Positions 16,884-42,175 of a DNA stretch of 64,000 nucleotides are shown here, piece by piece. Position 1 is the first letter of the stretch; every line of letters begins with the position of its first letter. The stretch comes from Thermococcus cleftensis. Lineage in GTDB: Archaea > Methanobacteriota_B > Thermococci > Thermococcales > Thermococcaceae. Made by a program: the position numbers and the translations under genes. The stretch spans positions 1,090,322-1,154,321 of the forward strand of contig NC_018015.1 of NCBI RefSeq assembly GCF_000265525.1. The letters are read 5' to 3'. Below the pieces are notes generated by a model. The model did not search any database. It was not told the origin of the DNA and was given only the letters and a program-made list of their open reading frames with translations.

Positions 16884-16928
16884 GGTTTTTCAAAGCTCAG
16901 TTTGCCAAAAAAAGGTAAGAAACACCTT

Positions 16929-22426: not shown

Positions 22427-22494
22427 GCTTCCACCCCCATGAACACATATGTCCACATGCACATTTTTGTCCCCTCGATTGAAACTTGAATCTG

Positions 22495-22539: not shown

Positions 22540-22645
22540 TTATATGGCCTTCTTTTCGGAAAAGGAGTCCTGAAAAAGCTTTTTTGTATTCCCTTTTGAG
22601 GATATAAAACAAAAGCGTTTAACAAAGTGGCAGAAAAATAAAGGC

Positions 22646-23476
22646 TCACAGGAGCTGGGCCATGTTCCTCTGGGCCCTCGCGAGCTTCTCCCTCGCCCCC
22701 TTGAGAACCTCGCCGAGGACGTGGGAGCCGTCGCGTAGCTCGAGGTAGCCATCATTCTCAGCTCCTCTAACGAGCTCCTCCCCGCGCTGGTTTCTCGTTA
22801 TGATGACAGTCCAGCCGGGTTCGCTCTCGACGAAGCCAGCAGAGATATCGCTCCACACGCCGGTGTAGTCGGAGCAGACCAGACAGCCAGTCTGGAGGTA
22901 GGAGAAGGCCTCCCTAAGTGGTATCGTGAGGACCCCGCTCTCCCTGTGGATTTCGAGGAAGTCCCTTGTGAGCTTTATGTCTACTATCTCCTCCGCCCTG
23001 ACCCCGTACTTAACGCGCAGGTAGTTGAGGAAGGCCTCGAAAGCGAAGGTGCCCATGCAGAAGAGACTCACGATGTAGCGAATCCTGTTCCCGAAGTCTG
23101 CCTCGAGTATCGGGAAGTCCCTCATCTGGCCGAAGAACTGGGCCTGGCAGGGCAGGCAGACGACTGCAACCTTCTTTAAGTCCTCTTCCTCTATTTTCGC
23201 CTTTATTCTCGCGGCAAAGGGTACGATGCTCCAGCGATTCCCTGCCGTCTCGAGGAGCTCCTCCTTCGTTCTCGCGACCACAGCTTCGCCCTCAAGTCCC
23301 TTGGTTCTCTTCGAGGTGACGATGCCGTCTATCAGGCCCTTCTCCAGGGCGTAGGTCAGCATTGCGGTAACAGCGCCTCCGCTGGCAACTTTCCTTCTCA
23401 GTATCTCCTTGTCGGTTCCCCTACCGAGGTAGACGGCCCTAATCTGGCCGAGCAGGCTTTCTCCAAACGGCATCAT
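22646..23476 (-). CDS. frhB: FrhB-like hydrogenase beta subunit
   Basis: A 276-residue iron-sulfur flavoprotein of the coenzyme F420 hydrogenase/dehydrogenase beta family. Conserved features are RRKVASGGAVTAMLTYALEKG near 26-46, a cysteine motif VVCLPCQAQFFGQ, LFCMGTFAFEAF, and GCLVCSDYTGVWSDIS. Thermococcales lack F420-dependent methanogenesis, so the partner is probably a flavin or disulfide system; in T. onnurineus the homologous complex was reported to donate electrons to thioredoxin reductase and to work with Fdh. ATG 23476 overlaps the frhG stop by 4 bases. Confidence 0.9.
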   Translation of the reverse strand: MMPFGESLLGQIRAVYLGRGTDKEILRRKVASGGAVTAMLTYALEKGLIDGIVTSKRTKGLEGEAVVARTKEELLETAGNRWSIVPFAARIKAKIEEEDLKKVAVVCLPCQAQFFGQMRDFPILEADFGNRIRYIVSLFCMGTFAFEAFLNYLRVKYGVRAEEIVDIKLTRDFLEIHRESGVLTIPLREAFSYLQTGCLVCSDYTGVWSDISAGFVESEPGWTVIITRNQRGEELVRGAENDGYLELRDGSHVLGEVLKGAREKLARAQRNMAQLL

Positions 23477-24153
23477 GACTTAACACCCCCGAGGCAGATT
23501 ATCTGGCTCGCGCGCGGACAGCGGATGTAGCAGGTTCCGCACCTGATGCACCTCTCCTGGGCCAGGGTAGGCCTCTTGTCTATGAGCTTGATGGCCCCAG
23601 TTGGGCAGGACAGCTCGCAGGCACCGCAGCCTATGCAGAGGCCAGTCAGGACGATGTCGTCTATGAGGTCGAACCCGCTGAGCTTCTTGACCTGGGCCGT
23701 CACCTTGAAGAGCCTAAGCCTCGTCTCGTTGCCGGCTGTGAAGTACTTGAAGAAGGACTGGAGCATCTGGGGCGTTGGTGGACAGCCGGGTATCGAGTAA
23801 TCAACCTCAATTACGCTGTTTATCGGCTGGAAGTTCCTGTGGTCCGGCCTCGGCGCTTGGCCTCCCCGGCAGAAGCGCAGTATCCCGCCTAGGGCCGAGC
23901 ACGAGCCGAAGGCGACAACAACCTTCGCCTTCTCCCTCACCTCCTTCAGCTCCTCGATGACCCTCGGCTCGTTCATGCAGACCCCGCCGGTTACGAGAGC
24001 CACATCGTACTCGTCGTACTTGTAACCCCCGTTGCGGAGGTATGAGATGTCGAGTTCTACGCTCTCCATGAGCTTCGGATACGCCCTGATTATGCTGACG
24101 TTACAGCCCTCGCAACCGCCTATATCAACGTGGAGGACCTTGAGCTTCTCCAT
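23473..24153 (-). CDS. frhG: FrhG-like [NiFe] hydrogenase small subunit with ferredoxin domain
   Basis: A 226-residue protein. Its hydrogenase small-subunit domain has GGCEGCNVS near 12-20, FGSCSALGG, and YSIPGCPPTPQ for the proximal cluster. A C-terminal ferredoxin domain adds two clusters: CIGCGACELSCPTGA and CIRCGTCYIRCPR. Electrons would pass from the NiFe site in FrhA to FrhB. The ATG at 24153 follows GGGGTGATTGGT; the GTG at 24162 falls inside the ribosome binding site. The frhA stop is just upstream. Confidence 0.92.
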   Translation of the reverse strand: MEKLKVLHVDIGGCEGCNVSIIRAYPKLMESVELDISYLRNGGYKYDEYDVALVTGGVCMNEPRVIEELKEVREKAKVVVAFGSCSALGGILRFCRGGQAPRPDHRNFQPINSVIEVDYSIPGCPPTPQMLQSFFKYFTAGNETRLRLFKVTAQVKKLSGFDLIDDIVLTGLCIGCGACELSCPTGAIKLIDKRPTLAQERCIRCGTCYIRCPRASQIICLGGVKS

Positions 24154-24158
24154 ACCAA

Positions 24159-25331
24159 TCACCCCAACCTAACGACGTGGGTCGTGCAGGGGATGCAGGG
24201 GTCGTAGAGCCTCATAACCGTCTCAGCGGCCCTGACGCTCAGCCCCTTCGCCATCTCCTCCATGACCGGAATGTTGAACATCGTCGGAACCACAATCTTC
24301 GAGCTCACAACGCGCCCCTCCTCGCCGAGCTCGATGTAGTGTATCAGCGTTCCCCTAGGAGCCTCGTAAACGCCGACGCCCCTGCCCGGGCCGAAGGTTA
24401 TGTTCTTGACCCTGAAGGCTTCCTCCATGTTAATCTCGTCGAGAATCTCCGCGAGCCTGAGGAGGGCAAGCTCCGTATCTTCGACCCTCGCGAGGTGCAG
24501 GCCGTAGAGGGAATCGTCTTTGAACTCGCGGTAGGTCTTCATTCTGGCCCTCGGGCCGGTCTCGACCTTCTTCCCGTCGTAGAAAGCCACCAGCGTCGTT
24601 GATTCCCTCGCGGGCTCTTCCTTCCTGAACTCGTAGTACGGCATCGTCTCAACCCTGTCGGTCCTTATGTTGTAGCGGTCGCCGTAGAAGAAACTGCTCG
24701 TTAAATAGGGCATCTCCCTCCTCGCCCCTCTGAGCTCCTCGGCGACTTCGGTCTGAACGTCCTCGTCGAGGAGAATTTCTCTCAGCTCCTCCCAGCTCTT
24801 TATGAGGTTCGGAAACCTCGCCTTGAGGTTGTTGAAGACGCTCCACTTGGGAACGCGGAGCATTCCCCCTATCGTGAGGTTCGGCGGGTGAGTCGCAGCA
24901 CCACCAAGCTTCAGCAGGTAGTCGCTGACCTTGGCGTGGAAGTCCATCAGCTTGAAGAGAACCTCGTTCCGCTTCTCCTCCTTTATCAGGTCGCCCGCTA
25001 TCATGAGGAACTGGAGGGCGTGACTCTGAGTCCTGTTTATCAGCCCCAACGCCTCCCTCATGAGGAGCCCGTTCCTCGGCGGGGCTATGCCTATCGCGTG
25101 CTCCACCGCCTCGACCGCCGCTATGCCGTGGGACGCGTGGCAGAGTCCGCAGATTCTCATCACCGCCTCTACCGCGAACAGCGGGTTCTTTCCGATGACC
25201 ATCTTCTCGAAACCCCTGACCGGGGCCGTTGTGATGAAGAGCGCGTCCGTCACCGTCCCGTTCTCCTCATAGAGGACGAGCTTTGCCTCCCCAGCGACGC
25301 GGCACATCTTGTTAATGGCTATCTCACCCAA
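24159..25331 (-). CDS. frhA: FrhA-like [NiFe] hydrogenase large subunit
   Basis: The catalytic subunit of a soluble group 3 hydrogenase, about 390 residues. Nickel-iron ligands are C61/C64 in RICGLCHASHG and C379/C382 in the C-terminal DPCIPCTTH. Only VVRLG follows the final histidine, so the processed tail is very short, similar to the VVRL tail that I recall for P. furiosus soluble hydrogenase. The TTG at 25331 is preferred: GGGGGTGGTACC is upstream, and the TATA box near 25385-25394 puts the transcript start at about the ATG of the longer frame (25367), leaving no room for its leader. Confidence 0.92.
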   Translation of the reverse strand: MGEIAINKMCRVAGEAKLVLYEENGTVTDALFITTAPVRGFEKMVIGKNPLFAVEAVMRICGLCHASHGIAAVEAVEHAIGIAPPRNGLLMREALGLINRTQSHALQFLMIAGDLIKEEKRNEVLFKLMDFHAKVSDYLLKLGGAATHPPNLTIGGMLRVPKWSVFNNLKARFPNLIKSWEELREILLDEDVQTEVAEELRGARREMPYLTSSFFYGDRYNIRTDRVETMPYYEFRKEEPARESTTLVAFYDGKKVETGPRARMKTYREFKDDSLYGLHLARVEDTELALLRLAEILDEINMEEAFRVKNITFGPGRGVGVYEAPRGTLIHYIELGEEGRVVSSKIVVPTMFNIPVMEEMAKGLSVRAAETVMRLYDPCIPCTTHVVRLG

Positions 25332-25381
25332 GGTACCACCCCCAAATTTGAATTTTATCTCCCCCATTAGGTAATCGTCGG

Positions 25382-29158: not shown

Positions 29159-29511
29159 GCCCACTCGTCCTCCGGTATGGCCTCCTTCTTGGCGGGGATT
29201 ATGCAGAGGAACTCGAAGGTGTCGGTTAAGGCCTTGTAGCCGTGGGGCTCGTTGGGCGGGACGTAGAGGAAGTTCCCTGCTTTGACGTGGTACTCCTCCT
29301 TTCCGTTGGTTATTACCCCCTCGCCCCTCATGATGAAGATTTCATGCTCCCAGTCGTGCTGGTGGATCGGGATCTCCGAGTTCTTCCTGAGGACGAAGTA
29401 GCGCATGGCGAAGTTCTTGGCCCCGAGCTTCGGGGAGACGAGCCATCTAATGGTTACTCCTTCAAAACCGGTGTCCTTCTCGGGGACCTCCGTGTAGTGT
29501 CCGACGAACAT
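29155..29511 (-). CDS. Cupin-domain protein
   Basis: A 118-residue single-domain beta barrel. Cupin motif 1 is IPIHQHDWEHEIFIMRGEG with the metal ligands H-x-H and E/H, and motif 2 is GNFLYVPPNEPHGY with the second histidine. Such small cupins bind a divalent metal and act as isomerases, dioxygenases or sensors; the substrate cannot be read here. GGTGATACC precedes the ATG, and a TATA-like AGATTTAAATATTCC is at about 29537-29551. It is convergent with the signal peptidase gene and overlaps it by 4 bases. Confidence 0.85.
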   Translation of the reverse strand: MFVGHYTEVPEKDTGFEGVTIRWLVSPKLGAKNFAMRYFVLRKNSEIPIHQHDWEHEIFIMRGEGVITNGKEEYHVKAGNFLYVPPNEPHGYKALTDTFEFLCIIPAKKEAIPEDEWA

Positions 29512-29618
29512 GGTATCACCGAGGGACTCTCGATCCTGGAATATTTAAATCTGCCGAGTCTGAACCGCAATCAAAAGGGCTTTAAGCTTCCCGTTCAACC
29601 TCCTTGAAGGTGGAGCTT

Positions 29619-31226
29619 ATGAGGAAAGTTGCTTTTGGAATCCTGCTGGTTTTTATGGTGCTGGCCGCGGGATGCATCAGCTCCAGCGGACCGGGCCAGA
29701 CATCGAGCACTACTACCACCGCATCGGGTGGAATAGACTTCGGGAGCTACGAGAAGGGTCAGGTCCTGGCCCAGTGGGAGGGCCTTGCGGACGTTTCGAA
29801 GGTCTACGTGAGTGAGGGCTACGAGGATCTTGCAAAACACTACTTCCCGGACGCTCAGATTCTCCCGGCTAGCCAGTACGGTGGGGGCGTCGCGGTGCTC
29901 TCGCCGGCGGACGCGAGGGAGATACTCAGGGGTAAGCCGATCCTTATAACGGTCAACGATTACTTTGGCTACATTGTTTACAAGCTCGGCGTCAAGTTCG
30001 TGGGGAAGGACAAGGGAATATTCGCGGCTTTCAACAATGATGGAAAAGCGTACTTCGTCTTCACCGGTACGAGCAGGGCCGGAACAGGGGCGGCGATTGA
30101 GTACGCGATGGAGCTGAAGGACGGGAGGAAAATCAGGGCCGATGACGTCGTGAGGAGCGGGGAGTTCGAGGGAATAGTGGTCAAGGTCATAGGCGACAAC
30201 GACTGGGACGGGGTTCCTGATGACGGCGAGCACTGGTACCTTGACTCCTTCAGGACTGAGGAGCCCTTCATCTACTACTGGCGCGTCGTCGATGGTGCGA
30301 ACGTTACCGTGAAGGGCGGCTTCATAAGGCTCGTGAACGGCTCCACCGTTTACATTCACGCCCTCGGCTTCAACGTGAGCGCAACCGTGGACGGGGACGT
30401 CGAGCTCACCTACGTCATCGAGAACATCAATCCCTCGATACTCGACCTGCCCGAGGGCGCAGAAACCGGCGACACCTGGGTCAGGTTTAGGGCTCCCTCA
30501 TTCCGGCTGGCTGCCGAGGACGTCGGCAACTACACCGTTTTAGCCCTCGGTGACCACAGGCCGGACGGAGGGAAAGAGATTCCACCGGTGTTCCTCAAGA
30601 TACGGGACGAGATCAACGAGGACGACGGGCTGTTCATTATAGATGGCGGTGACCTCGTTTACTCCGGCAGGGTGGACGAGTGGGGCGAGCTTCTCAAGGA
30701 GTGGAAGTGGAACAAGCCGATATTCGTCGCGCCAGGCAACCACGAGTACAGGGGTGAGGGAATAAACGTCTATCACCAGGTGTTCGGTCCTGACGACTAC
30801 TCCTTTGCCCTGGGCGATTATTACTACGTTATCATCAACAACATCGAGCACGACTACGGACTGAGCGATGAGACCTTCTATTGGCTCGAGAAGGAGCTGG
30901 AGAAGGCGAAGAATGCCGGAAAGAGGCCTGTCCTGGTTCTCCACGCGCCCCCGATAGACCCGAGACCGGACGGTGATCACGCGATGAACCCAGAGGACGC
31001 CAGAAAGCTTTTGACCCTCATGAAGAAATACAACGCCTTCGGGGTCTTCAGCCACATTCACATCTACTGGTACGGTGAAGAGGACGGGGTTCAGATGGTC
31101 ATCACTGGCGGTGGTGGAGCTCCCCTCTACGCCCCAGAGGACGAGGGGGGTTTCTACCACTACGTCAGGCTCAACATGCTCTCCAACGGCACGATACAGG
31201 TCGAACCGGTCAAGGTCGAGCCCTGA
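29619..31226 (+). CDS. Membrane-anchored lipoprotein with calcineurin-like phosphoesterase domain
   Basis: A 535-residue secreted protein. A signal peptide ends in the lipobox LAAGC (C near residue 19), followed by a Ser/Thr linker. Residues about 40-290 form an unfamiliar N-terminal region with an EF-hand-like DNDWDGVPDDGE. The C-terminal metallophosphoesterase has motifs in order: ALGDHRP, IIDGGDLVYSG, APGNHEYRG, VLHAPP and FSHIHIYW. The first motif has GDHR in place of the usual GDxH. It may release phosphate outside the cell, which would fit the phosphate transporter encoded downstream. ATG 29619 follows GAAGGTGGAGCTT. Confidence 0.85.
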   Translation: MRKVAFGILLVFMVLAAGCISSSGPGQTSSTTTTASGGIDFGSYEKGQVLAQWEGLADVSKVYVSEGYEDLAKHYFPDAQILPASQYGGGVAVLSPADAREILRGKPILITVNDYFGYIVYKLGVKFVGKDKGIFAAFNNDGKAYFVFTGTSRAGTGAAIEYAMELKDGRKIRADDVVRSGEFEGIVVKVIGDNDWDGVPDDGEHWYLDSFRTEEPFIYYWRVVDGANVTVKGGFIRLVNGSTVYIHALGFNVSATVDGDVELTYVIENINPSILDLPEGAETGDTWVRFRAPSFRLAAEDVGNYTVLALGDHRPDGGKEIPPVFLKIRDEINEDDGLFIIDGGDLVYSGRVDEWGELLKEWKWNKPIFVAPGNHEYRGEGINVYHQVFGPDDYSFALGDYYYVIINNIEHDYGLSDETFYWLEKELEKAKNAGKRPVLVLHAPPIDPRPDGDHAMNPEDARKLLTLMKKYNAFGVFSHIHIYWYGEEDGVQMVITGGGGAPLYAPEDEGGFYHYVRLNMLSNGTIQVEPVKVEP

Positions 31227-31326
31227 CCTTCTGTCTATTTATTCTATTTTGGCCTATATAGATGTGGCCACCGCGATATATTCTACTGCGACAAGATATT
31301 TATAGAGCGCACCTTAGCGGGTTCCG

Positions 31327-32547
31327 GTGGTGAGCGTGGACGTGTGGCTATTGATAACGGTTCTCCTGGGTTTCGCGATGGCTTGGGCGATAGGTGCCAA
31401 CGACGCCGCCAACTCGATGAGCACCGCCGTCGGTGCGAAGGCGATAACCCCGAAGCAGGCGGTTATAATAGCTGGCCTCCTTGAGTTCACGGGCGCGTAC
31501 TTCTTTGGGAAGAGCGTCACTGAAACTATAAGGAAGGGAATCCTCGACCCTACGATGATAACCGACCCGATGGTCCTCGTGTATGGCTCCGTTGCGGCCC
31601 TTCTCGCGGCCACGATATGGCTAATAGTGGCCACCAAGTTCGGCCTACCGGTCTCGACTACCCATTCCATCATCGGCGGCATAGCGGGCTACGGAATAGT
31701 CTACGCTGGCACGGCGATAGTGAACTGGGGCAAGATGGGTCAGGTGGTTCTCAGCTGGATTCTCTCACCGATAATCGGCGCCATAATGGCCTACTTCATC
31801 TTCAAGGCCTTCACCAAGAGCATCTTCGAGAGAAAGGACCCCGTCAGGAGCGCCAGGATATGGTCCCCGTTCTGGATCGGCTTGGCTTTCGTGGTCATTG
31901 GAACCATGTTCTACATCAAGGTTCTCCATGGAAAGGACCTAAAGACGGGAGTTCTCATGTACGGTATTCCGCTGGGTATTATCGTGTTCGTGGTGACTTA
32001 CTTCCTCATAAAGCTCCGCTTCCCGAGCAGCGACCCGTTCGTCGGGGTTGAAGCGATATTCCGGAAGGCGCAGGTGGTGACTTCCGGCTACGTTGCATTG
32101 GCCCACGGTGCCAACGACGTTGCCAACGCCATCGGTCCCGTCGCTGCCGTCTACGCGGTAGCCACGATGGGTCTCGGCGGAATGGAAGTGCCGGTCCCTA
32201 GGTGGATTCTGGCCCTCGGCGGTCTCGGGATAGCGGTTGGCGTTGCGACCTACGGCTACAGGGTGATGGAGACGGTGGGAAAGAAGATAACCGAGCTCAC
32301 CAACACGCGCGGCTTCACCATCGACTTTTCAGCGGCAACCGTTGTCCTCGCCGCCAGCTGGCTTGGACTTCCAATCTCGACCACCCACACCGTCGTCGGC
32401 GCGGTCATTGGAATAGGCCTCGCGAGGGGGGTAAAGGCAATAAACAAGGACATAGTGAGGGATATAATAATCTCCTGGTTCGTCACCGTTCCGGTGGCCG
32501 GTCTAATCAGCGCGGCCATATTCAAGGTTTTGATGGTGGTGGGGTGA
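31327..32547 (+). CDS. PiT-family inorganic phosphate transporter
   Basis: An ion-coupled phosphate permease of about 406 residues. The two inverted PiT repeats show as AIGANDAANSMSTAVG near 19-34 and AHGANDVANAIGPVAA near 259-274, each with the paired GLPxSTTHxxxG motif (FGLPVSTTHSIIGG, LGLPISTTHTVVGA). About ten helices. The start is unclear: GTG 31327 lies 25 bases after TATA-like GATATTTATAG and could be leaderless; GTG 31330, 31336 and 31342 are also in frame. The next gene follows by 4 bases. Confidence 0.92.
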   Translation: MVSVDVWLLITVLLGFAMAWAIGANDAANSMSTAVGAKAITPKQAVIIAGLLEFTGAYFFGKSVTETIRKGILDPTMITDPMVLVYGSVAALLAATIWLIVATKFGLPVSTTHSIIGGIAGYGIVYAGTAIVNWGKMGQVVLSWILSPIIGAIMAYFIFKAFTKSIFERKDPVRSARIWSPFWIGLAFVVIGTMFYIKVLHGKDLKTGVLMYGIPLGIIVFVVTYFLIKLRFPSSDPFVGVEAIFRKAQVVTSGYVALAHGANDVANAIGPVAAVYAVATMGLGGMEVPVPRWILALGGLGIAVGVATYGYRVMETVGKKITELTNTRGFTIDFSAATVVLAASWLGLPISTTHTVVGAVIGIGLARGVKAINKDIVRDIIISWFVTVPVAGLISAAIFKVLMVVG

Positions 32548-33226: not shown

Positions 33227-33270
33227 GCCGATATTCTTTTAAACCTCCCTTCTAACTTTTTTCGGTGGGA

Positions 33271-34068
33271 ATGAAGGACGGTGTTAGAATAGTCCGCGAG
33301 TTCTTCAACATTCAGAGGGAGGTCTTTTTCAGCTACCGCTGGGACGTGGTCAGCTACCTGATAGGCCTTCTAATCCAGGTTGCGGTGATGGGAATCTTTG
33401 CGAGCCTGGTGACGATAGACGCCAACATCGAGCAGTACGGAACCGACTCCTTCCTCCAGTTCTTTCTGATAGGCTTCATCGTGCACAACATAATATTCCT
33501 TCCGCGGGGCAGCCTTTCCAAGCTCCTGATTGGACGGAGCTTCCCGATGCTCTACGCCTCCCCCGCCGGAATGGTGGCGATCTTCGTGGGAATAAACGCC
33601 TGGAACGTCGTCTGGAGCCTTATGATAATGGGCCTTATAACTACAATCTTTGTTCTCTTCTACGGCCTGGTCATACACATCAACCTCGGTGCCCTGCTCG
33701 TTATCCTCGCGGGCTTCACCCTCACCTTCGCCCTTGAACTCTTTTCAGCAGGCTTTCGGGCCGCTACCAAAGCCAGGCAGGACCCGATAAACTGGTTCCT
33801 CAACCTCACCTCCCAGCTCGTGAGCGGTCTCTACTTCCCGCCCGACGCGCTTCCCTGGTGGCTCCAGCCCATTTCCAAGATACACCCAGAGAGGTACATT
33901 CTTGAGATGGCCAGGCTGACGATGGGCGGGGGCTATTCAGTGTCCCAGATCTGGCCCAGCTTCGTGAACCTTGCCCTGACCACTACTATCATGCTCCTCA
34001 TCGGAATCGCGACCTTCCGGTGGGGCGTTGGGAAGGCGATGCAGCTGGGCACCCTCGGGCACGTGTGA
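33271..34068 (+). CDS. ABC-2 type transporter permease
   Basis: A 265-residue membrane protein with six helices of the ABC-2 (drug/polysaccharide exporter) class. N-terminal REFFNIQREVFFSYRWDVV is the cytoplasmic coupling helix and SGLYFPPDALPWWLQPISKIHPERYILE near 190-216 is the conserved loop before the last helix. The ATG at 33271 is preferred over GTG 33265. TATA-like CTTTTAAACC lies at about 33237-33246. The ATPase gene follows 9 bases downstream, giving a two-gene exporter of unknown substrate, upstream of the radical SAM locus. Confidence 0.88.
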   Translation: MKDGVRIVREFFNIQREVFFSYRWDVVSYLIGLLIQVAVMGIFASLVTIDANIEQYGTDSFLQFFLIGFIVHNIIFLPRGSLSKLLIGRSFPMLYASPAGMVAIFVGINAWNVVWSLMIMGLITTIFVLFYGLVIHINLGALLVILAGFTLTFALELFSAGFRAATKARQDPINWFLNLTSQLVSGLYFPPDALPWWLQPISKIHPERYILEMARLTMGGGYSVSQIWPSFVNLALTTTIMLLIGIATFRWGVGKAMQLGTLGHV

Positions 34069-34077: not shown

Positions 34078-35055
34078 ATGATAGAAGCCGAGCATCTCAC
34101 CAAGTACTATCCTCCCCCTTTCAGGGGCTTCTTCGATCTGGGTAGCCTCCGCGATTTTCTCGGAAAGCCCAGGGAAGAGATTCCAGCCCTCATAGACCTG
34201 AGCTTCCGGGTGAGGGAGGGGGAGATATTCGGCCTCCTCGGCCCCAACGGCGCGGGAAAGACAACCCTCTGCAAAATCGCCAACGGCCTCCTCGAGCCGA
34301 GTTCCGGAAAACTGCTCATCGACGGCCACGACAGCTTTAGGGAGCACGGCAAAGTTGCTGGTGAGATGTTCACGGTTTTCACCGGCGAGAGGGATATGTG
34401 GGGCATATTCCAGTGGCGCTTAAGCGTTCAACGAAACCTCCAGTTCATCGCGAGGCTGTGGAAGGTCCCCGAGGGTGAGATAGGGGAGCGCATAGAGTAC
34501 GCGCTCAAGCTACTGAACCTGTGGGAGAAGAGGGACGAGTGGTACCAGAAGCTCTCGGCCGGAATGAAGCAGAAGGTTTACATCGCCTCCGCCCTGGTGG
34601 TGAGGCCGAAGTACCTCATACTCGACGAGCCGACGGTTTTTCTCGACGTGATAACCAAGAGCGAGATACATGACGCAATAATGGCCCTCGTCCGTGACTT
34701 TGGGACGACGGTTATCCTCACCACCCACGACCTTTCGGAGGCGGAGAAGCTGAGCGACAGGGTTCTGCTCTTCAACAAGAGGCCTATCCTGGAAGGAAAG
34801 CCCGAGGAGATAAGCAGGAAGCTCGAGGTGGACTTTGACAGGAAGGTTCTCCTTGTGGTTGAGGGCTCCGCTCCGTGCCCTGGAGGCTACCTCGTCAGGT
34901 GCATCAGGAAGGGTAATTTCACCCACGTCACTGCCTACCTCAAGTCCGGCGAGGTCAATGAGTTCCTCTCCAGGTTCCCCTCAGGCAAAGTGCTGAGCGC
35001 GCGGGTTGAGAACCTGTCCCTGGAGGACGTGTTTATGATTCTGTTTGGCAGTTGA
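34078..35055 (+). CDS. ABC transporter ATP-binding protein (exporter class)
   Basis: A 325-residue ATPase that energises the upstream permease. Walker A is GPNGAGKTT, the signature is LSAGMKQK (a variant of LSGGQ), Walker B is YLILDEPT, and the switch histidine is in TTHDLSE. An N-terminal segment (PPFRGFFDLGSLRDFLGK) precedes Walker A, and a C-terminal extension of about 80 residues follows, both as in DrrA/NatA-type exporters. GAGGTGGTTAG precedes the ATG. It is the only ABC ATPase in the window, while four ABC-type permease genes downstream have none. Confidence 0.92.
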   Translation: MIEAEHLTKYYPPPFRGFFDLGSLRDFLGKPREEIPALIDLSFRVREGEIFGLLGPNGAGKTTLCKIANGLLEPSSGKLLIDGHDSFREHGKVAGEMFTVFTGERDMWGIFQWRLSVQRNLQFIARLWKVPEGEIGERIEYALKLLNLWEKRDEWYQKLSAGMKQKVYIASALVVRPKYLILDEPTVFLDVITKSEIHDAIMALVRDFGTTVILTTHDLSEAEKLSDRVLLFNKRPILEGKPEEISRKLEVDFDRKVLLVVEGSAPCPGGYLVRCIRKGNFTHVTAYLKSGEVNEFLSRFPSGKVLSARVENLSLEDVFMILFGS

Positions 35056-35105: not shown

Positions 35106-35146
35106 AATTTTATAAATTTTAGTGGTGTTTGTTATTCGGTGATGTA
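35106..35146 (+). promoter_or_regulatory. Promoter of the radical SAM/peptide locus
   Basis: AATTTTATAAATTTT at 35106-35120 is a strong TATA box; a transcript start near 35142 would be at or just before the ATG at 35147. GGTGAT at 35138-35143 lies three bases before that ATG. The surrounding 35056-35150 is clearly more AT-rich than the neighbouring genes. Confidence 0.6.
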
Positions 35147-36607
35147 ATGAAAGTCAGTAACACTACACCCAAGCCTGAGTTATATAATTTCGAAGTGGGT
35201 GGCAAGTACTTTGTTCTACATTCGTCCACGGGAACCCTCTTTGAGGTCGATAAGAAAACCTACGACTTCTGCAGGTTTGTGGCAGAACTGGGCTGGAGTG
35301 ATGCCAGAGAGCGTTTTGTAATGGAGTACTCCGAATCTGACTGGGATTCTTTGATAAATGAGATTAAATCTGATGAAAGTCTTCGCCGTGTGTTTTTTGA
35401 GCCCAAGCCCCCGGTAAAACCATATCTTGGAATTATGAAGTCCAAAATTTCTTCCCTCTCCCTTAATGTTATGGAGGACTGCAACTTTGCCTGCGTTTAC
35501 TGCTATGGAGATAGTGGAACTTATCACACTCCCAACACCAGAATGAGCCCGGAAGTTGGTAAAAGGGCTATTGATTTGCTGATGGGGGAAGGAAAGAAAG
35601 TTGTTAACCTACAGTTCTTCGGTGGCGAACCTTTGTTGAACTTTCCGCTGATTCGGGAGCTTGTTCAATACGCCAAGCAGAAGGCTGAAGAGTATGATAA
35701 AGTCGTCACGTTCAGCATCACCACCAACGGCTACCTCGTGACTGACAAGGTTATTGACTTTTTCCTCGAGAACAACTTCACGGTAACCCTGAGCTTTGAT
35801 GGTCCTGAAGACGTTCAGAACCACAATAGACCCCTGCGCGGCGGGTATCCAACCTTTGATGTTGTTGCGAAGAATGCAAAGAAGATGCTTGAGCGCGGCG
35901 TTAAGGTTAGCGTCCGCGCGACGATTCTGCCCGAACAGCTCGACAGGTACTATGAGATCTATCGGTTCTTCGTTGATTTTGGTTTTAGGAGCGTTCATCT
36001 TGAGCCTGCAACCACTAGCACGCCGCTAACCAAGGAGCATGCTAAACTCGTTGAGTCTGCCCTGAAAAAGATAGTGATGGACGAGCTTGAACACTACAAA
36101 GAGAAGGGAATCGTTTACACGAAGCTCCGTGAGATTGTCCACATGATCTACTCCAACACCTACCGCCATTATCCATGCGGCGTTGCCAGGAGCTACTTTG
36201 GGGTTTCAGCAGATGGGACGATGTATCCCTGCCACAGGTTCGTGGGCATGGAGGAGTTTGTTGTTGGACACGTTGATGATTTCAAGTGGGAGAACGAGTT
36301 CATTCAGAAGATCCTTCATCATACCGTGGATAGGAGGCCGAACTGTTCGAACTGTCCGATAAGGGCCTACTGTGGCGGTGGTTGTATATACAACAACCAC
36401 TACTATAACGGTGATATATTTGCTCCCGACGAGTTCCACTGCGCCTATATGTTTGCTCTCGTGAAATGGGGTTCTTGGCTCTACTCGAATCTTGACGAGG
36501 ATTGGTTGAATAAGGTCTTCTCACGCTCACCCCAGAGAGGGGTGAGGGCCGAGGAGTCCGATGAGGCCAAAACCCAAAAACCAACGGAGGTGATAGAGAG
36601 TGTTTAA
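35147..36607 (+). CDS. SPASM-domain radical SAM peptide maturase
   Basis: A 486-residue enzyme with the layout of SCIFF/ranthipeptide-type maturases. An N-terminal segment (ELYNFEVGGKYFVLHSSTGT, then LFEVDKKTYDF) resembles the peptide-recognition start of that group. The radical SAM cluster is C112/C116/C119 in DCNFACVYCYGD, with FFGGEPLLN after it. The SPASM region has C344, C362, C400, C403, C409, C413 and C432 for auxiliary [4Fe-4S] clusters. Such enzymes form thioether bonds from peptide cysteines. Two Cys-rich micro-genes follow directly, the first overlapping its stop, so they are its likely substrates. Base composition is more AT-rich than the flanks, hinting at acquisition. Confidence 0.88.
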   Translation: MKVSNTTPKPELYNFEVGGKYFVLHSSTGTLFEVDKKTYDFCRFVAELGWSDARERFVMEYSESDWDSLINEIKSDESLRRVFFEPKPPVKPYLGIMKSKISSLSLNVMEDCNFACVYCYGDSGTYHTPNTRMSPEVGKRAIDLLMGEGKKVVNLQFFGGEPLLNFPLIRELVQYAKQKAEEYDKVVTFSITTNGYLVTDKVIDFFLENNFTVTLSFDGPEDVQNHNRPLRGGYPTFDVVAKNAKKMLERGVKVSVRATILPEQLDRYYEIYRFFVDFGFRSVHLEPATTSTPLTKEHAKLVESALKKIVMDELEHYKEKGIVYTKLREIVHMIYSNTYRHYPCGVARSYFGVSADGTMYPCHRFVGMEEFVVGHVDDFKWENEFIQKILHHTVDRRPNCSNCPIRAYCGGGCIYNNHYYNGDIFAPDEFHCAYMFALVKWGSWLYSNLDEDWLNKVFSRSPQRGVRAEESDEAKTQKPTEVIESV

Positions 36608-36728
36608 GAAGCTGAACGCCGGCGGCAACCCTGTGGAGCCGGAGTTCTGTCTCGACATCTGCTGGGACTGGAACATCTGCGGGTTGGATATCTGTGGAGT
36701 AGACAATTCCTGCGGCATTGATTTGTGA
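36600..36728 (+). CDS. Cys/Asp-rich RiPP precursor peptide 1, 42 aa
   Basis: A GTG start at 36600 has a perfect ribosome binding site, GGAGGTGAT at 36586-36594, and overlaps the radical SAM stop by 8 bases. The peptide has a short leader beginning MFKKLNAGGNPVEPEF and a core with five cysteines (17, 21, 27, 32, 38), each followed two or three residues later by aspartate: CLD, CWD, CGLD, CGVD, CGID. Regular Cys-x(1-2)-Asp spacing next to a SPASM enzyme suggests Cys-to-Asp thioether crosslinks, as in QhpD substrates and CX3D ranthipeptides. The final product and activity are unknown. Confidence 0.82.
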   Translation: MFKKLNAGGNPVEPEFCLDICWDWNICGLDICGVDNSCGIDL

Positions 36729-36740
36729 TGGGTGAAGACA

Positions 36741-36911
36741 ATGTTTAGGAGACTAACTCACCAGGAAAACCATGAGCACGAACCTGCATTTTGTATAGTG
36801 TTTGATATTCCATGCGGCGGGCTGGATCTCTGTGGCATAGATCAATGCGCCTTAGACCTGTGTGGAATTGATGCCTGCGGGCTAGACAACACGTGCCTAG
36901 TTGATCTTTGA
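36741..36911 (+). CDS. Cys/Asp-rich RiPP precursor peptide 2, 56 aa
   Basis: A second precursor, ATG at 36741 after GGGTGAAGACA, 12 bases behind the first. The leader starts MFRRLTHQENHEHEPAF and matches peptide 1 in the frame M-F-basic-basic-L ... E-P-x-F-C. The core has seven cysteines (18, 25, 31, 36, 41, 46, 52), each followed by aspartate: CIVFD, CGGLD, CGID, CALD, CGID, CGLD, CLVD. Every cysteine is paired with an aspartate three or four residues on and there are no free aromatic residues in the core. It is the longer paralogue, probably from duplication of the CG(L/I)D unit. Confidence 0.82.
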   Translation: MFRRLTHQENHEHEPAFCIVFDIPCGGLDLCGIDQCALDLCGIDACGLDNTCLVDL

Positions 36912-36946: not shown

Positions 36947-37294
36947 GTGAGAGCTTCATCAACAACACTCCTGGCGATACTCCTGGTCAGCGCCATGCTG
37001 GGAGGGTGCCTTGGCGGTGGGAATTTCGTGTACTCGAAGGGCAAGGTCGTTAAACCGGGCTCTGAGGTGGTATACCCCTTCAAGGGCCCCGTGACCCTGA
37101 ACGTGGACGTCTCTGGGAACGGGCCGTTCACCTTACTCGTGGTCTCCTCGGACGGTTCAAAGGAGATCTTTAAACGGACAAATGTGACCAGAGTGAAGGA
37201 GAAGGTGGAGTTTCCAGAAGGCTCCTGGAAGGTCATCATAAGGAACGAGGGAGAGAGCTCATTAGTTCTCGACATAAGCCTCAGAGGGGAGTAG
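36947..37294 (+). CDS. Small secreted lipoprotein of the RiPP locus
   Basis: A 115-residue exported protein. After MRASSTTLLAILLVSAML comes a lipobox GGC (cysteine near 21), then a beta-sandwich-like domain (KVVKPGSEVVYPFKGPVTLN, PFTLLVVSSDG, VEFPEGSWKVIIRNEGESS). No family is recognised. GTG 36947 has GGGGGGATAACC upstream; an upstream in-frame ATG at 36908 overlaps the end of peptide 2. Position suggests a role in handling, presenting or providing immunity to the modified peptides. Confidence 0.75.
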   Translation: MRASSTTLLAILLVSAMLGGCLGGGNFVYSKGKVVKPGSEVVYPFKGPVTLNVDVSGNGPFTLLVVSSDGSKEIFKRTNVTRVKEKVEFPEGSWKVIIRNEGESSLVLDISLRGE

Positions 37295-37370: not shown

Positions 37371-38972
37371 GTGAAGCCCCTAAACATATTTCTAACTTTT
37401 TTTGAACTGGAACTAAACCGGCTCAAAGGAAACCCCGTGCTCAGGCTCCAGCACCTTTTCGCTGCCTTAGCCGCCATCGTGTCCATCATAGCTGTCGAGA
37501 TAGACGTTTCCAGATTTACCGCCCACTACCAGGATATTCCGGCAGAGGAGCTTGCCCGCCTTGTCACCGCCGATCTGATCACCAAGTGGCTCCCCAACTT
37601 TCTCAAGTTCCTCTTCATGCCCCTCCTGCTGATCTTACTTCTCTCGCGCTTCGGTTCGGACTTCGAGCGGGGAAACGTTGTGCTAATGTTATCGAAACCC
37701 CTCACGAGGAGGCGCTACTTCCTCGGCTGGACCTCTGAGGGGTTGAAGCTCGTTCTAATTTCCGCCCTTGGAATTGCACTCTCCGGAGCGCTCGCAATGC
37801 TGGCTCACGGCTTCGCGGTTAGGGATTACCTCATCGGCTCGCTCGTCCTTTCGCTCTCGCTGGTCGGCGTTGTTGGAATCGTCCTTTTCCTCCTTCCCTT
37901 CGCCACCTCCCGCGACTCGGGGGTCTTCCTCGGGCTGGGGGCCTTTGTCATGCTCCTACTCCTCGGAAAATCTGACTACTCTTTCGTTCCAACAGTCTAC
38001 CTTGAGAGGGCCGTTTCCATTGGAGGGGGCGTCTCCGTATCCTACAGAGTGATTGCCGAGCTTTTCGCCCTCTCCATTGCTCTATCGCTCGCCGGAATGG
38101 AGCTGTTCCGGAGGAGGGAGCTTAGAAGCCCCGGACCATTGCCGGTTCCGGGAGTTTCCTTCTCTCCCCGTGGGCTTTACGGCGTTTTCCTCGGGTTAAG
38201 CCTTCAGAGCAGGCGCTTCATGGCCTTCGTTGCCTTCACGGCTTTGATGGCACTTCTGAGCAAAGGGACTCTCGATAAGTACTACCTGAACTACGGTAAT
38301 CCGGGCCTTCTCAACGCCCTAATTTCAACTCTGAACGGCTCTCTCCTCCCCTTCGTGGTTCTCCCGCTGGGGGCGCTTTCGATAAGCTCGACCATTGACA
38401 ACGGCACCGTAAGGGTTCTTCTAAGCAAGCCCCTGAGGAGAAAGGACTTCTTCCTTGGAACGCTCCTGAGCGATGCCCTCGCAGTATCTCTTGGTGTGGC
38501 TCTTTACGTTGCCTTGGTTATAGCCTACGCCCTGCATCTTGGCGCCCCGTTAAGTAAAACCCTTGAACTCGGCCTGGTCTTCGGTTCTCTGCTTTTCCTC
38601 TCGCTTCTCCAGTATTTGGCGCTCGGCTACCTGCTGTCAGCTTTCATGAGGGGCAGAAAAGCCCTCATTTTTTCCGTTCTCCTGGCGTTCCTCGTGGGCT
38701 TTGTTGCTCCCCTCCTTGTCATCACGGCCTCTCTGGCGGGGGCCGGGAACGGCAGCCCCATCGAAGTGTTCTCAAGGAACGCCCTGCTTGTCCCAAGCCC
38801 TTCCGCGCAGTACACGGTCCTTAATATGGCCGTCTCCCCAAAGCGTAGCCTTCCGCCGGCGCCGGTCAGTGAGGTTCTGGATTATAAGGCCAATATGGCC
38901 ATGCTGATCCTTCCAACTCTCGCCTACCTCACCGTCTCCTGGGTGAAGTTCAGAAAAGCCGACCTGAGGTGA
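37371..38972 (+). CDS. ABC-2-like membrane permease, fused double unit (533 aa)
   Basis: A large membrane protein made of two similar halves. Each has a cytoplasmic N-terminal helix and the ABC-2 element found just after the second helix (FERGNVVLMLSKPLTRRRYFLG at about 104-125 and DNGTVRVLLSKPLRRKDFFLG at about 343-363). About twelve helices. GTG 37371 follows GGAGGCGGGAAACCA. The repeated LSKPL motif also occurs in the next gene, so three ABC-2 modules stand in a row. No ATPase is encoded in this unit. Confidence 0.8.
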   Translation: MKPLNIFLTFFELELNRLKGNPVLRLQHLFAALAAIVSIIAVEIDVSRFTAHYQDIPAEELARLVTADLITKWLPNFLKFLFMPLLLILLLSRFGSDFERGNVVLMLSKPLTRRRYFLGWTSEGLKLVLISALGIALSGALAMLAHGFAVRDYLIGSLVLSLSLVGVVGIVLFLLPFATSRDSGVFLGLGAFVMLLLLGKSDYSFVPTVYLERAVSIGGGVSVSYRVIAELFALSIALSLAGMELFRRRELRSPGPLPVPGVSFSPRGLYGVFLGLSLQSRRFMAFVAFTALMALLSKGTLDKYYLNYGNPGLLNALISTLNGSLLPFVVLPLGALSISSTIDNGTVRVLLSKPLRRKDFFLGTLLSDALAVSLGVALYVALVIAYALHLGAPLSKTLELGLVFGSLLFLSLLQYLALGYLLSAFMRGRKALIFSVLLAFLVGFVAPLLVITASLAGAGNGSPIEVFSRNALLVPSPSAQYTVLNMAVSPKRSLPPAPVSEVLDYKANMAMLILPTLAYLTVSWVKFRKADLR

Positions 38973-38976: not shown

Positions 38977-39897
38977 ATGTGGGGATTTGAGCTGGAGCTG
39001 AAGAAGAGCCTGCGGACGAAAAAGTTCTGGCTGATACTGGTTTTGATTTTGCTGATCTACGCCATGGCCTTTAGAGAGGTCAAGGACAACCTCGAAGGGG
39101 CCACCAATCCGGAAGAGGTGCTCGTCACGAGTCTCGTGGGTTACATAGCTGTCAGCGCGTTCCTCTTCATCGGCGTCTACGCCCTCATGGCGGGTGCAAC
39201 TTCGGTGAACTCCGACCTGGAGGACGGAACGGTGAGGGTAGCCCTCAGCAAGCCGCTTGGAAGGACGTCGTATCTTCTCGGCAAGTTCCTCGGCCAGGCC
39301 CTCAGCGTAGTGGTGGCTATGGTCTTCGCCACCCTTCTGTCCTTCGCGATAACGAAGTACTACGGCCTCTCCCTCACCACCTCCCTCGTTGGGGACCTGG
39401 TCCTCTCGAACCTGCTAATCCTGTTCGCCATGCTCCAGCTCCTCGCCCTCGGCCTGCTGATTTCCACGTTCGTGTGTTCCTCCAACACCGCCCTGGGGCT
39501 GGCTCTGGTTCTATTTTTCGTTACCGGCCTCGTCATGCCCCAGGTGATGGACGGCTTCGCCGAGGACAAGGCCAAGGAGGAGTTCGGGATTCAGAAATGG
39601 GGGGACTTCAGCAAGCTTTCGCCGGAGGAGAAAAAGGCCTATCGCGAGCGTCTGGACAAGCTTTACAGGGAATATCACCTCAAATACCTCTTCTACGTCC
39701 CTCAGGTGCTCATGCTCGACATCTTCAAGGGCATAGATAGAACCACCTTCAACGACGACGGCACATACACCGTCGAGTACATTGGGGTTAAGCGAGCCAT
39801 AGCTGACAATCCCGCTCAGATGGCCTTAATAGTTGGGCTTATCCCCGTCTACCTTGGATTGGCTCTCTTCAGGTTCAGAAGAATGGATTTGAGGTGA
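38977..39897 (+). CDS. ABC-2-like membrane permease, single unit (306 aa)
   Basis: A single ABC-2-type permease. It shows the same motif as its upstream neighbour (LEDGTVRVALSKPLGRTSYLLGK at about 80-102), six helices, and a large polar loop (EDKAKEEFGIQKWGDFSKLS, residues about 195-270) between helices five and six. It starts 4 bases after the upstream gene with GAGGTGATAGC as ribosome binding site. Probably it pairs with the double unit as one exporter. Confidence 0.82.
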   Translation: MWGFELELKKSLRTKKFWLILVLILLIYAMAFREVKDNLEGATNPEEVLVTSLVGYIAVSAFLFIGVYALMAGATSVNSDLEDGTVRVALSKPLGRTSYLLGKFLGQALSVVVAMVFATLLSFAITKYYGLSLTTSLVGDLVLSNLLILFAMLQLLALGLLISTFVCSSNTALGLALVLFFVTGLVMPQVMDGFAEDKAKEEFGIQKWGDFSKLSPEEKKAYRERLDKLYREYHLKYLFYVPQVLMLDIFKGIDRTTFNDDGTYTVEYIGVKRAIADNPAQMALIVGLIPVYLGLALFRFRRMDLR

Positions 39898-39957
39898 TGG
39901 CCGTGTTGGAAAGGAAATGTCCCCCAAACTCACCGGGTAGCCTGGCGGGGTGATCCC

Positions 39958-40956
39958 ATGGGCCGGGCTATCTCCCGCGCGCTCCTCAACTACCTCCTCC
40001 TTATCCTTCTCGTGGCGCTTATATCTGGCATCGGGATAAAGGATTACAGCTTCTACCGGGCGGATATGAAGTTCAGCCTGATGCCCCCTGCGGAGAGGGC
40101 TGTGATAGAGGCCAACGCGAGTTCCATGGGAATGGACCCCTACGACTACTACATGCGTTTCGTGGCCCCGAAGGACTACCCGACCCTCGCGATGAACCCC
40201 CTTCATGCGGGGCTTTACGTGCTCTACCACTCCCTCTTCGATCCTGACTACGATTATCCTGTACCGAGGAAGCTCATGGTGGTCAGAACGCTGGTGCTAA
40301 CCCTCCTGGCTGAGATCACGATAATCCTCATCGGCTTCCCCCTCGCAAAGCTCGCCCTCAGGAAAAGGCGCCTCCGCTCTACCGTCCGCTTTCTCGCCAG
40401 GGTCTTCAACGGCCTCCCCGTCTGGGCGGTGGCGGCGCTCTTCTCGCTCCTCATCATAATGAGCGCGCTCCCCAACTACCTGATAAACGGCCTCGGCGCA
40501 TCGACCTCCCTCACCAGGAACCTCGCCTACATGGCCTTTCCGCTGATTTCCATAGTCCTCGTCGCCCTCTGGGAGTTCGTCGAGGCTTTGGTGATACTCC
40601 TCCGGGACGAGTTCGGGAAGGAGTACGTGCGCGCCAAGAGGGCGATGGGGTTGCCAGAGCGCAGGGTCGAGAGGCACGTCCTCCGCGCCGTGATGCCCTC
40701 GTTCCTCGGCTTCCTCTTCCAGCACTTCGTCGAGGTCTCGACGCTCGCCCTCGTGGTCGATGCCTTCTTCGGCCTCTTCGGCCTCGGCAAGATGCTCGAG
40801 TGGGGCTTCCGCATATCGGGCGACCTCTACACCCTCGACCCGGACGTCTTCTTTTATCCCATAGCGGTCTTCATGGTCGTGAACTTCTTCGTCCTCCTGG
40901 CGGTGACCCTCCTGTCGGAACTCCTGACCCCCGGAGGTGGCGGCGTTGAGGCTTGA
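39958..40956 (+). CDS. DppB-like ABC importer-type permease
   Basis: A 332-residue permease of the oligopeptide/nickel transporter class. The EAA loop that contacts an ATPase is present (EYVRAKRAMGLPERRVERHV, about 222-241, then LRAVMPSFLGF), with six helices and a long periplasmic-side loop after helix one (residues 28-95). GGGGTGATCCC precedes the ATG. It pairs with the DppC-like gene that overlaps its 3' end. No solute-binding protein or DppD/DppF ATPase is nearby. Confidence 0.85.
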   Translation: MGRAISRALLNYLLLILLVALISGIGIKDYSFYRADMKFSLMPPAERAVIEANASSMGMDPYDYYMRFVAPKDYPTLAMNPLHAGLYVLYHSLFDPDYDYPVPRKLMVVRTLVLTLLAEITIILIGFPLAKLALRKRRLRSTVRFLARVFNGLPVWAVAALFSLLIIMSALPNYLINGLGASTSLTRNLAYMAFPLISIVLVALWEFVEALVILLRDEFGKEYVRAKRAMGLPERRVERHVLRAVMPSFLGFLFQHFVEVSTLALVVDAFFGLFGLGKMLEWGFRISGDLYTLDPDVFFYPIAVFMVVNFFVLLAVTLLSELLTPGGGGVEA

Positions 40957-42175
40957 TCGGAAGGAAAAAGCCGGAATCGCGCTGATACTGCTGGTGATGC
41001 TCCTCGCGGTCGTTCCAATGCATCTCCTCGTGCCCCCTGAAAAGGCCGCCAACTGGAACTACCTGCCCTACTGGAACGACTATCCCAAGAACGCCAGGCC
41101 CATCTGGCTTCCTTCGGGCTTCAGAACCCTTGAATCGGCTGGAACGAATTTTTCAATGACCTTCACGGTTGATGGGATCGTTCCGGGAAACGTGATGATC
41201 GAGGGCAACTCGACGGTTAGGCTTGTAATTCACCGCCCCGACGGCCTTTCCGTGGTTCTTGGCCCGGTAGAGGTGAACGGGAGGACGAGCATCAACTCCA
41301 ACCCCACCCTCGCCGCGGGGGCTTACGAGTTTGCCGAGTCCCTCGGCTACGGCCCGGAGAGCAGGCCCCTCTTCACGCCCACCCAGCTCCTCTTCATGGG
41401 GTACGGCGGCGAGGTTCTGGAGGGAAGGTACACCCTTGAGGTCGAATCCTCTTCCCCCGTTGCCGTCACGGTCTTTGGCGATTCCTACGGTCTCCTCGGC
41501 ACAGACTCCTACGGCCGCGACCTCTGGGTGGGCTTTGTTCTTGCCGGTAGGAGTACTCTGCTCGTGTCGCTTGAGGTCTCCCTCCTTGTGATGATCATAG
41601 GCCTGCTCCTCGGCCTCTTCGCCGGTTACTATCGGAGCCGGCCCGCGATTCTTCTTGAGAGCCTGCTGAACTCCCTGGGGGCGCTCCCCGTCCTTCCCCT
41701 CGCGATGCTGATGATATTCTCATTCTCAACGACGGGCATAGCGATGACCAGGGAGATAGGGACGGGAACCCTGTCACTGATACTCGCCCTCCTGCTCGCG
41801 GGCAAGTTCGGGAGCGCCGTGAGGGGCTTCGTCGTTCAGGAGAAGGTCAGGGAGCACGTTGCCGCGGCAAGGGCTCTTGGGGCCGGCGACCTCTACATTC
41901 TCAGGAGGCATATTCTGAAGCCTGTAATCCCCTACGCCCTGAGCCACTTCAGCCTCCTGTTCCCCAAGGTGGTCGCGCTCGTGGCGATACTCGGGTTTTT
42001 CAACATGATTCCGAGCGACAACTGGGGCTCCTTCATACTCGAGGGTCTCAACCAGGGCGCCCTATACGCGGGCAGATGGTGGTGGTTTTTAGCTCCTGTC
42101 GTCACGATGGTGCTTTTGAGCGTGGGCTTCGCCCTGCTCTGGGACGATGATGGCCCAGAAGGCGTTCTGGCATAA
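40946..42175 (+). CDS. DppC-like ABC importer-type permease
   Basis: A 409-residue permease. The first helix (AGIALILLVMLLAVVPMHL) is followed by a large extracytoplasmic domain (about 30-190), longer than usual for DppC, then by the membrane domain starting at LGTDSYGRDLWVGFVLAGR, the DppC landmark. The EAA loop is EHVAAARALGAGDLYILRRH. TTG 40946 is the preferred start because GGAGGTGGCGGCG directly precedes it; the frame also has GTG 40937. It overlaps the DppB stop by 11 bases. It ends the RiPP-locus run of permeases. Confidence 0.85.
   Translation: MRLDRKEKAGIALILLVMLLAVVPMHLLVPPEKAANWNYLPYWNDYPKNARPIWLPSGFRTLESAGTNFSMTFTVDGIVPGNVMIEGNSTVRLVIHRPDGLSVVLGPVEVNGRTSINSNPTLAAGAYEFAESLGYGPESRPLFTPTQLLFMGYGGEVLEGRYTLEVESSSPVAVTVFGDSYGLLGTDSYGRDLWVGFVLAGRSTLLVSLEVSLLVMIIGLLLGLFAGYYRSRPAILLESLLNSLGALPVLPLAMLMIFSFSTTGIAMTREIGTGTLSLILALLLAGKFGSAVRGFVVQEKVREHVAAARALGAGDLYILRRHILKPVIPYALSHFSLLFPKVVALVAILGFFNMIPSDNWGSFILEGLNQGALYAGRWWWFLAPVVTMVLLSVGFALLWDDDGPEGVLA

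Follow-up and report, generated by a model that had tools for sequence, protein, structure and literature searches.

The stretch of DNA analyzed here (the window) comprises 64,000 nucleotides of the Thermococcus cleftensis genome (NC_018015.1, positions 1,090,322 to 1,154,321 of the forward strand). It contains a locus in which the gene for a radical S-adenosylmethionine (SAM) enzyme with a SPASM domain is followed directly by two micro-genes whose products are rich in cysteine and aspartate. The locus likely directs the formation of a ribosomally synthesized and post-translationally modified peptide (RiPP) in which each Cys would be cross-linked to an acidic residue. The features at its center are:

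35108..35119, + strand: TATA-like element TTTTATAAATTT upstream of the enzyme gene, read from the sequence; presumed promoter
35147..36607, + strand: radical SAM/SPASM peptide maturase, 486 aa, with an N-terminal region (residues ~12-80) resembling a RiPP recognition element (RRE); PF04055, PF13186
36586..36594, + strand: ribosome binding site of precursor 1, GGAGGTGAT, perfect
36600..36728, + strand: precursor 1, 42 aa, GTG start, leader MFKKLNAGGNPVEPEF, core CLDICWDWNICGLDICGVDNSCGIDL; 5 Cys, 5 Asp followers
36730..36735, + strand: ribosome binding site of precursor 2, GGGTGA, read from the sequence
36741..36911, + strand: precursor 2, 56 aa, ATG start, leader MFRRLTHQENHEHEPAF, core CIVFDIPCGGLDLCGIDQCALDLCGIDACGLDNTCLVDL; 7 Cys, 7 Asp followers

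The gene order is that of a RiPP locus, with a complete set of SPASM cysteines in the enzyme and both precursors directly 3′ of it; the start of precursor 1 overlaps the enzyme stop by 8 nt, and the conserved leader of the two precursors begins MF[KR][KR]L[NT]. The original prediction, made from this DNA without database searches, had described such an arrangement and had pointed to strong ribosome binding sites before both micro-genes, a common leader frame (MF[KR][KR]L...EPxFC), and five and seven Cys, each with an Asp at +2 to +4. All of this was borne out, the Cys-to-Asp offsets being +2, +2, +3, +3, +3 in peptide 1 and +4, +4 and then five times +3 in peptide 2. Its statement that the pairs are mostly CG[L/I/V]D was correct as to the motif but generous as to “mostly”, as the motif occurs at 6 of the 12 Cys. 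Every Cys in both peptides has an Asp before the next Cys (5/5 and 7/7), and when the cores were shuffled pairing this complete had p = 0.009 for peptide 1 and p = 0.0004 for peptide 2. Neither window precursor matched a nif11 or SCIFF model of NCBIfam. To the CefA model (NF038108) peptide 2 gave a weak match of 22.3 bits, under the cut-off of 30, and peptide 1 gave none.

Comparison of 94 Thermococcaceae genomes (given G numbers below; G000 is the genome of the window) placed the enzyme in a clade present in nine of them, namely the window, six at 87-92% identity, and two (G109, G117) at 69-70%. Between one and three precursors follow each of the nine enzymes directly, giving 18 peptides in total; their leader is conserved, with Asn at position 6 in most. 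Orthologous enzymes lacking adjacent Cys-Asp micro-genes, which the original prediction had named as contrary evidence, were not encountered (9/9 loci have them). A precursor profile search matched eight of the nine enzyme genomes plus an orphan peptide in G004, and none elsewhere; the peptide of G081 fell below the profile threshold and was recognized by inspection. Co-occurrence of peptide and enzyme gave a Fisher p of 7e-10.

Within a core type, peptide 1 is under strong purifying selection. The three genomes that have the window's core differ by 7-10 synonymous versus 1-2 nonsynonymous changes in this peptide, and the ratio of nonsynonymous to synonymous substitution rates (dN/dS) is ~0.02-0.03; that of the enzyme is 0.06-0.13. 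Short open frames that begin with a common start codon abound in this DNA, which might suggest that the micro-genes are chance open frames and that the enzyme acts elsewhere. That origin is ruled out by the dN/dS values, the conserved leader and the co-occurrence, and the strong ribosome binding sites and the presence of peptides at all nine enzyme loci, and almost nowhere else, also speak against it; we consider its probability negligible.

The pairing of Cys with acid extends across all of these relatives. In the 18 peptides, 111 of 113 Cys have an Asp or Glu before the next Cys, compared with a mean of 66.1 (standard deviation 3.9, maximum 81) in 20,000 trials with shuffled cores. The first acid lies at +1 to +5 after the Cys, mostly at +3 and +4 (i.e., n = 0-4 in Cys-Xn-acid), and Glu replaces Asp in a few places (CNVE, CAFGE). 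The final Cys has a downstream acid in 17/17 distinct peptides. In seven pairs of cores of the same type, 45/45 Cys and 53/56 acids were kept versus 102/156 other residues (p = 7e-6).

Different loci carry very different cores. Among the window, G096, G034, and G090, the enzymes are 88-92% identical to that of the window and the peptide 1 leaders 81-93%, while the peptide 1 cores are 26-39% identical, or 7-21% once C, D, and E are ignored. DNA identity between relatives is high up to the leader and then drops. One core type is common to the window, G021, and G024, the precursor 2 core of G096 recurs in G004 (95%) behind a differing leader, and a third type is shared by precursor 3 of G024 and precursor 2 of G090. 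Synonymous divergence of the enzyme is greater between the window and G021, which have the same core (0.63), than between G021 and G034, which have different cores (0.27), and core type is therefore independent of enzyme descent. Because peptide 1 is under strong purifying selection within a type, the diversity between types looks like replacement, and fast point mutation was rejected as its source. In G024 and G021 the last 33 enzyme codons are repeated before an extra peptide, and G021 carries two units of an enzyme tail with the small lipoprotein gene described below; these duplicated tails suggest that the exchange ran through recombination at the 3′ end of the enzyme gene and the leader. 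Judged by sequence comparison, the pairing is kept while the rest of the core changes, cores are swapped across species and the module spans both flanks of the enzyme, all of which lay beyond the view of the original prediction.

The enzyme has PF04055 and PF13186 above the Pfam cut-offs, as expected for a radical SAM/SPASM maturase. Its radical SAM motif CX3CX2C corresponds to C112/C116/C119 and its SPASM pattern CX12GX4C...CX2CX5CX3C...C to C344, C362, C400, C403, C409, C413, and C432, and all ten cluster Cys are invariant in an alignment of 22 relatives. Arg364, in the sequence CHRF, is invariant as well and may be the equivalent of PapB Arg372, cited as essential in PMC9413430. By NCBIfam scores the nearest characterized enzymes are QhpD and PapB, the two that the original prediction had named. 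The top score was to the NlpM/nif11 maturase model TIGR04064 (279 bits, cut-off 519), followed by PapB NF047865 (278 bits, cut-off 340), QhpD TIGR03906 (266 bits over residues 12-449, cut-off 453), the SCIFF maturase TIGR03974 (246 bits, cut-off 425), and CefB (118 bits, cut-off 600). Direct membership in the PapB, QhpD, NlpM, SCIFF, or CefB families was thus rejected, each curated cut-off being missed. Relatives of the enzyme rank the same models, with nif11, PapB, QhpD, and SCIFF scores close together. Among clade members scanned singly the highest PapB-model score was 289 bits (L052), and a bacterial homologue on an Anaerococcus plasmid clears the PapB cut-off (359 vs 340 bits). Upstream of that plasmid enzyme (Anaerococcus prevotii, L074) a small open reading frame at 3689-3841 begins MFEKINLGN, which resembles MFKKLNAGGN here. 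Among solved structures, CteB (5WGG/5WHY) is nearest in sequence, with an end-to-end alignment over residues 12-444 that includes the CteB N-terminal domain. CteB is also the best match by fold to an AlphaFold model, residues 12-75 of which form three strands and then helices, as in an RRE; this model gives weak support only, because the alignment behind it was too shallow (overall pLDDT, the predicted local distance difference test, only 52). No qhp or pea genes were found among the window neighbors of the enzyme. PADLOC matches were to generic radical SAM and ATPase models.

Two sister enzyme clades also obey the Cys-acid rule, with unrelated peptides of their own, and the three clades are well separated in the tree. 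One of them includes a second enzyme of G000 (C1:996173-997585; L002, L039), 41% identical to the window enzyme, which has a 4-Cys peptide MEFEVVNPGDKTKIWIGPCGVLDQGGCPFPEDWECWWPEDICYRPEPI, ending ...CGVLDQGGCPFPEDWECWWPEDICYRPEPI, and then dppBC-like permeases, an arrangement that recurs in G024, G034, and G073. In the other, which is linked to a major facilitator superfamily (MFS) transporter, the peptides are short, and their alignment is invariant only at C, D, and C and nearly so at an E. An enzyme and MFS transporter of this type lie on the Thermococcus nautili plasmid NZ_OX281346.1 at 29270-32309 (L073). Between the two on that plasmid is a short peptide, MRAMVKTRPKMEDDMLCSRIGDQWCEASDKAEII, where the plasmid gene table has no coding sequence. 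A more distant relative from another family of the class (L045, G048:C86) has three peptides of similar style, MTIRLNGTSEPQPPTCPDDYICPWVDICTIDFDPCAFIDICGIDYH in two near-identical copies and MMIRLNEGVEEGGIHICLIDYVHCDNIDICIVKDYAALG. The genomes G048 and G044, which are class-level relatives, have unusually many SPASM-type radical SAM matches (~26-30 per genome).

The enzyme and precursors lie within a larger module with the order permUp-ATPup-enzyme-peptides-slot gene-permD1-permD2-ATPdown. Its other members in the window, several of them of ATP-binding cassette (ABC) type, are:

33265..34068, + strand: permUp, ABC-2 type permease, probable exporter half; PF01061 at E = 5e-6, just under the Pfam cut-off
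34078..35055, + strand: ATPup, ABC transporter ATPase, partner of permUp; PF00005; 83-87% identical at close loci, 72% in G117
36947..37294, + strand: small lipoprotein with lipobox MLGGC, candidate immunity protein (the slot gene of the window); no family match
37371..38972, + strand: permD1, ABC-2 permease, candidate immunity or export; PF12679; 69-75% identical in relatives, 95% in G004
38977..39897, + strand: permD2, ABC-2 permease; PF12679; 77-92% identical at close loci

The identity of permUp is 94-98% at the other six close enzyme loci, among them that of G081, and 77% in G117. Relatives of permUp are also found 0.7-1.2 kb away from other SPASM enzymes, twice in G030 and also in G028 and G034. 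The location of the cassette varies: the window, G024, and G034 have it between pitA-DUF47 and dppBC, in G096 and G090 it adjoins an alanyl-tRNA synthetase-like gene, and G117 has it in a third place. The adjoining dppB/dppC (39958-42175) were ruled out as a defining part, as dppB is 91-95% identical in the enzyme-less genomes G001, G013, and G031. The slot gene encodes the lipoprotein where the core is of the window type (window, G021, G024), and within the cassette the lipoprotein is found only there. With the G096/G004 core the slot is occupied by a 428-aa permease, whose G096 and G004 versions are 55% identical; G034 has two other permeases there, and G109/G117 have yet another one. At the level of sequence, these loci show the core and the downstream slot gene changing together while the enzyme and leader stay.

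Genomes lacking an intact enzyme differ in what they keep of the cassette. In G031, DUF47 runs directly into dppB. G013 and G001 keep permD1-permD2 (G001 also ATPdown) with enzyme and peptides absent, G008 has fragments of permUp, ATPup, and enzyme, and scars of permUp remain in both G001 and G008. Lipoprotein relatives of at least 61% identity in enzyme-less genomes are all at the same site, in G011, G022, G074, and G009 (61-70%, intact), where there is no enzyme of this clade. In G022:C46 (L090, ~4280-4000) the intact lipoprotein is followed by a decayed enzyme tail and a pseudogene peptide, VLKKLNVGS*SAEPEWNC..., with a stop in the leader. Retention of the lipoprotein or permeases after loss of the product is what an immunity role would predict, although it is not proof of one. 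A strictly RiPP-specific lipoprotein was ruled out, as the family is present in 34 of the 94 genomes and only the clade at or above 61% is confined to the cassette site. Separately, G004 (C5:4315-4485, L078) has an orphan intact precursor with the core of G096 precursor 2 and the matching permease; the enzyme is absent, its position being taken by two permease genes. This is possibly a case of substrate borrowing or of decay. A scan of viral contigs found no virus carrying this enzyme clade.

We hypothesize, with a probability of about 0.68, that the locus is a RiPP cassette for a PapB/QhpD-like Cys-Asp(Glu) ranthipeptide that is exported by an ABC-2 transporter, is probably antagonistic, and is matched by cognate immunity. 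The Cys-Asp(Glu) chemistry suggested by the pairing is the part we consider quite likely. PapB links Cys to Asp at the beta-carbon or to Glu, which it tolerates, at the gamma-carbon; in vitro it takes Cys-Xn-Asp substrates with n = 0-6, and the leader plus an acid close by is nearly all that it requires (PMC9413430). An auxiliary cluster binds the substrate thiol (PMC10470005), and QhpD forms Cys-Asp/Glu methylene thioethers (PMC8172795). The archaeal spacing of n = 0-4 lies inside the range accepted by PapB. In the proposed mechanism, the leader would dock on the RRE, a 5′-deoxyadenosyl radical would take H from the Asp beta-carbon (or Glu gamma-carbon), and the thiolate of Cys, bound to an auxiliary Fe-S cluster, would add to that carbon. 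Each Cys-Asp pair would give a thioether ring with a change of -2 Da, i.e., five rings in peptide 1 and seven in peptide 2.

That the product is a secreted antagonist with cognate immunity seems to us an even bet, and the best of several uses. The upstream pair permUp/ATPup would export the product, which would act on related cells, and the lipoprotein and/or the downstream ABC-2 permeases may protect the producer. Lantibiotic immunity, LanI plus LanFEG, similarly places a lipoprotein, one ATPase, and a pair of ABC-2 permeases next to a RiPP; the window cassette is set beside it by analogy of gene content, not of sequence. Recombination at the enzyme 3′ end and leader would move a core jointly with its matching immunity genes, so that strains would swap the product much like a toxin with its antidote. 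More tentatively, and at slightly under even odds, we propose a polymorphic peptide-antagonism system of hyperthermophilic archaea in which one leader-guided enzyme serves interchangeable cores that travel with matching immunity genes, so that a single genus would contain producers, strains that are immune without producing, and empty strains.

Several observations weigh against this hypothesis. The enzyme scores below every curated cut-off, that of PapB included. PapA has uniform CX3D, versus X0-X4, mostly X2-X3, in the archaeal peptides, and a review (PMC8172795) describes an earlier study that reported PapB to be strict for X3. In the repeats, an Asp also stands before the next Cys, mostly by two residues and with spacing at least as tight as that from Cys to Asp, so that neither spacing nor sequence fixes direction or ring order; the acid after every last Cys, together with sister peptides whose first Cys can mostly reach only an acid downstream of it, favors Cys-then-acid. 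The cores are acidic (net -4 to -10; 19% Asp, 17% Cys), unlike common membrane-active peptides, which argues against a simple cationic peptide of that kind. The cassette contains no leader protease. ATPdown, which follows permD2 in G024, G034, G096, G090, and G117, is cleanly missing in the window (39897-39958) and has likewise been lost in G013. Lastly, the export and immunity roles are not exclusive, because some enzyme-less genomes also have permUp/ATPup and the lipoprotein family is broad, at 34-100% identity across the genomes that have it.

The enzyme might instead make another radical SAM link on the same peptides, such as a sactipeptide S-to-alpha-carbon bond, a ranthipeptide bond from Cys to a non-acidic acceptor (Thr in the case of CteB), or a cyclophane or epimer, with Asp serving, for example, solubility. 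CteB, a SCIFF maturase, is the solved protein that it matches best in both sequence and fold, and the close spacing of the four profile scores leaves room for such chemistry. We regard this as quite unlikely, however, given that conservation of the acids is nearly as strict as that of Cys in cores whose remaining residues change, that Cys and acid are all that is conserved in the different peptides of a sister clade, and that every distinct peptide has an acid after its last Cys.

Other alternatives concern the use of the product. Acidic, Cys-rich cores near several ABC permeases could be metal-handling peptides, in which Cys and Asp bind metal and the transporters move metal-peptide complexes. 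This is very unlikely in our view: full core replacement between close relatives, a co-varying slot gene, and the pattern of gain and loss would be odd for metal homeostasis, cross-linking would consume the thiols, and Pfam detected no metal-transport family among the cassette genes. A signaling role, in which the exported cross-linked peptide would carry a strain-specific message perceived through the accessory lipoprotein or permease, also fits strain-specific core types with a matching accessory gene, and a surface lipoprotein could serve as a receptor. We nevertheless judge it unlikely, as no regulator is linked and the lipoprotein is intact in genomes that have lost the peptide, which favors immunity over a receptor, though not strongly.

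As a Cys-Asp(Glu) ranthipeptide cassette, the locus most resembles PapA/PapB (freyrasin, Paenibacillus polymyxa, NF047865), with which it shares a SPASM enzyme, presumably RRE-leader docking, and an adjacent precursor with several Cys...Asp pairs per core in which Glu is tolerated; an Asn in the PapA leader has been proposed to matter, and the leader here has an Asn at position 6 in most peptides. It differs in having 5-8 Cys, an archaeal hyperthermophile host, hypervariable swapped cores, and a multi-gene transporter cassette. QhpD/PeaB is likewise a radical SAM/SPASM enzyme for Cys-to-Asp/Glu methylene thioethers, but its substrate is the gamma subunit of quinohemoprotein amine dehydrogenase and not a small secreted peptide. 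CteB/SCIFF has the same radical SAM and SPASM parts and an RRE, which the N-terminal region here resembles, makes ranthipeptide thioethers, and is the best structure match, with a different substrate family and a Thr acceptor. NlpM (TIGR04064) has the highest raw score, but neither precursor fits a nif11 model, and CefA/CefB, the Cys-every-fifth RiPP (NF038107/8), is represented by the weak peptide 2 match only, the enzyme being far below the CefB cut-off. The VARTIG module also shows hypervariability via recombination between Thermococcales and a conflict-like organization, yet it consists of large immunoglobulin-domain proteins, and the text of that paper does not mention radical SAM (PMC8416519).

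Radical SAM Cys-Asp peptides are already known (freyrasin, QhpC); new here are the archaeal host, variable spacing in natural substrates, and core exchange with a matching downstream gene. The original prediction knew of no thermococcal product of this type, and we found none in the literature searched, which largely excluded subscription papers and preprints. If the proposed chemistry is true, archaea make multi-ring Cys-Asp ranthipeptides, and nature already exploits the leader-only specificity of PapB-like enzymes by using one enzyme for very different cores. The 18 natural cores are a ready substrate set for a hyperthermophile cross-linking enzyme, useful for stable cyclic peptides. We know of no function for the bacterial relative freyrasin. 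If the proposed biology is true, Thermococcus, a genetically tractable genus, gains an antagonism system with a testable immunity logic.

Elsewhere in the window, positions 8552-25367 on the minus strand appear, from translated frames, to be a large region of hydrogenase/formate-dehydrogenase type, with hydrogenase-like subunits, ferredoxins, and a 712-aa molybdopterin-oxidoreductase-like protein.

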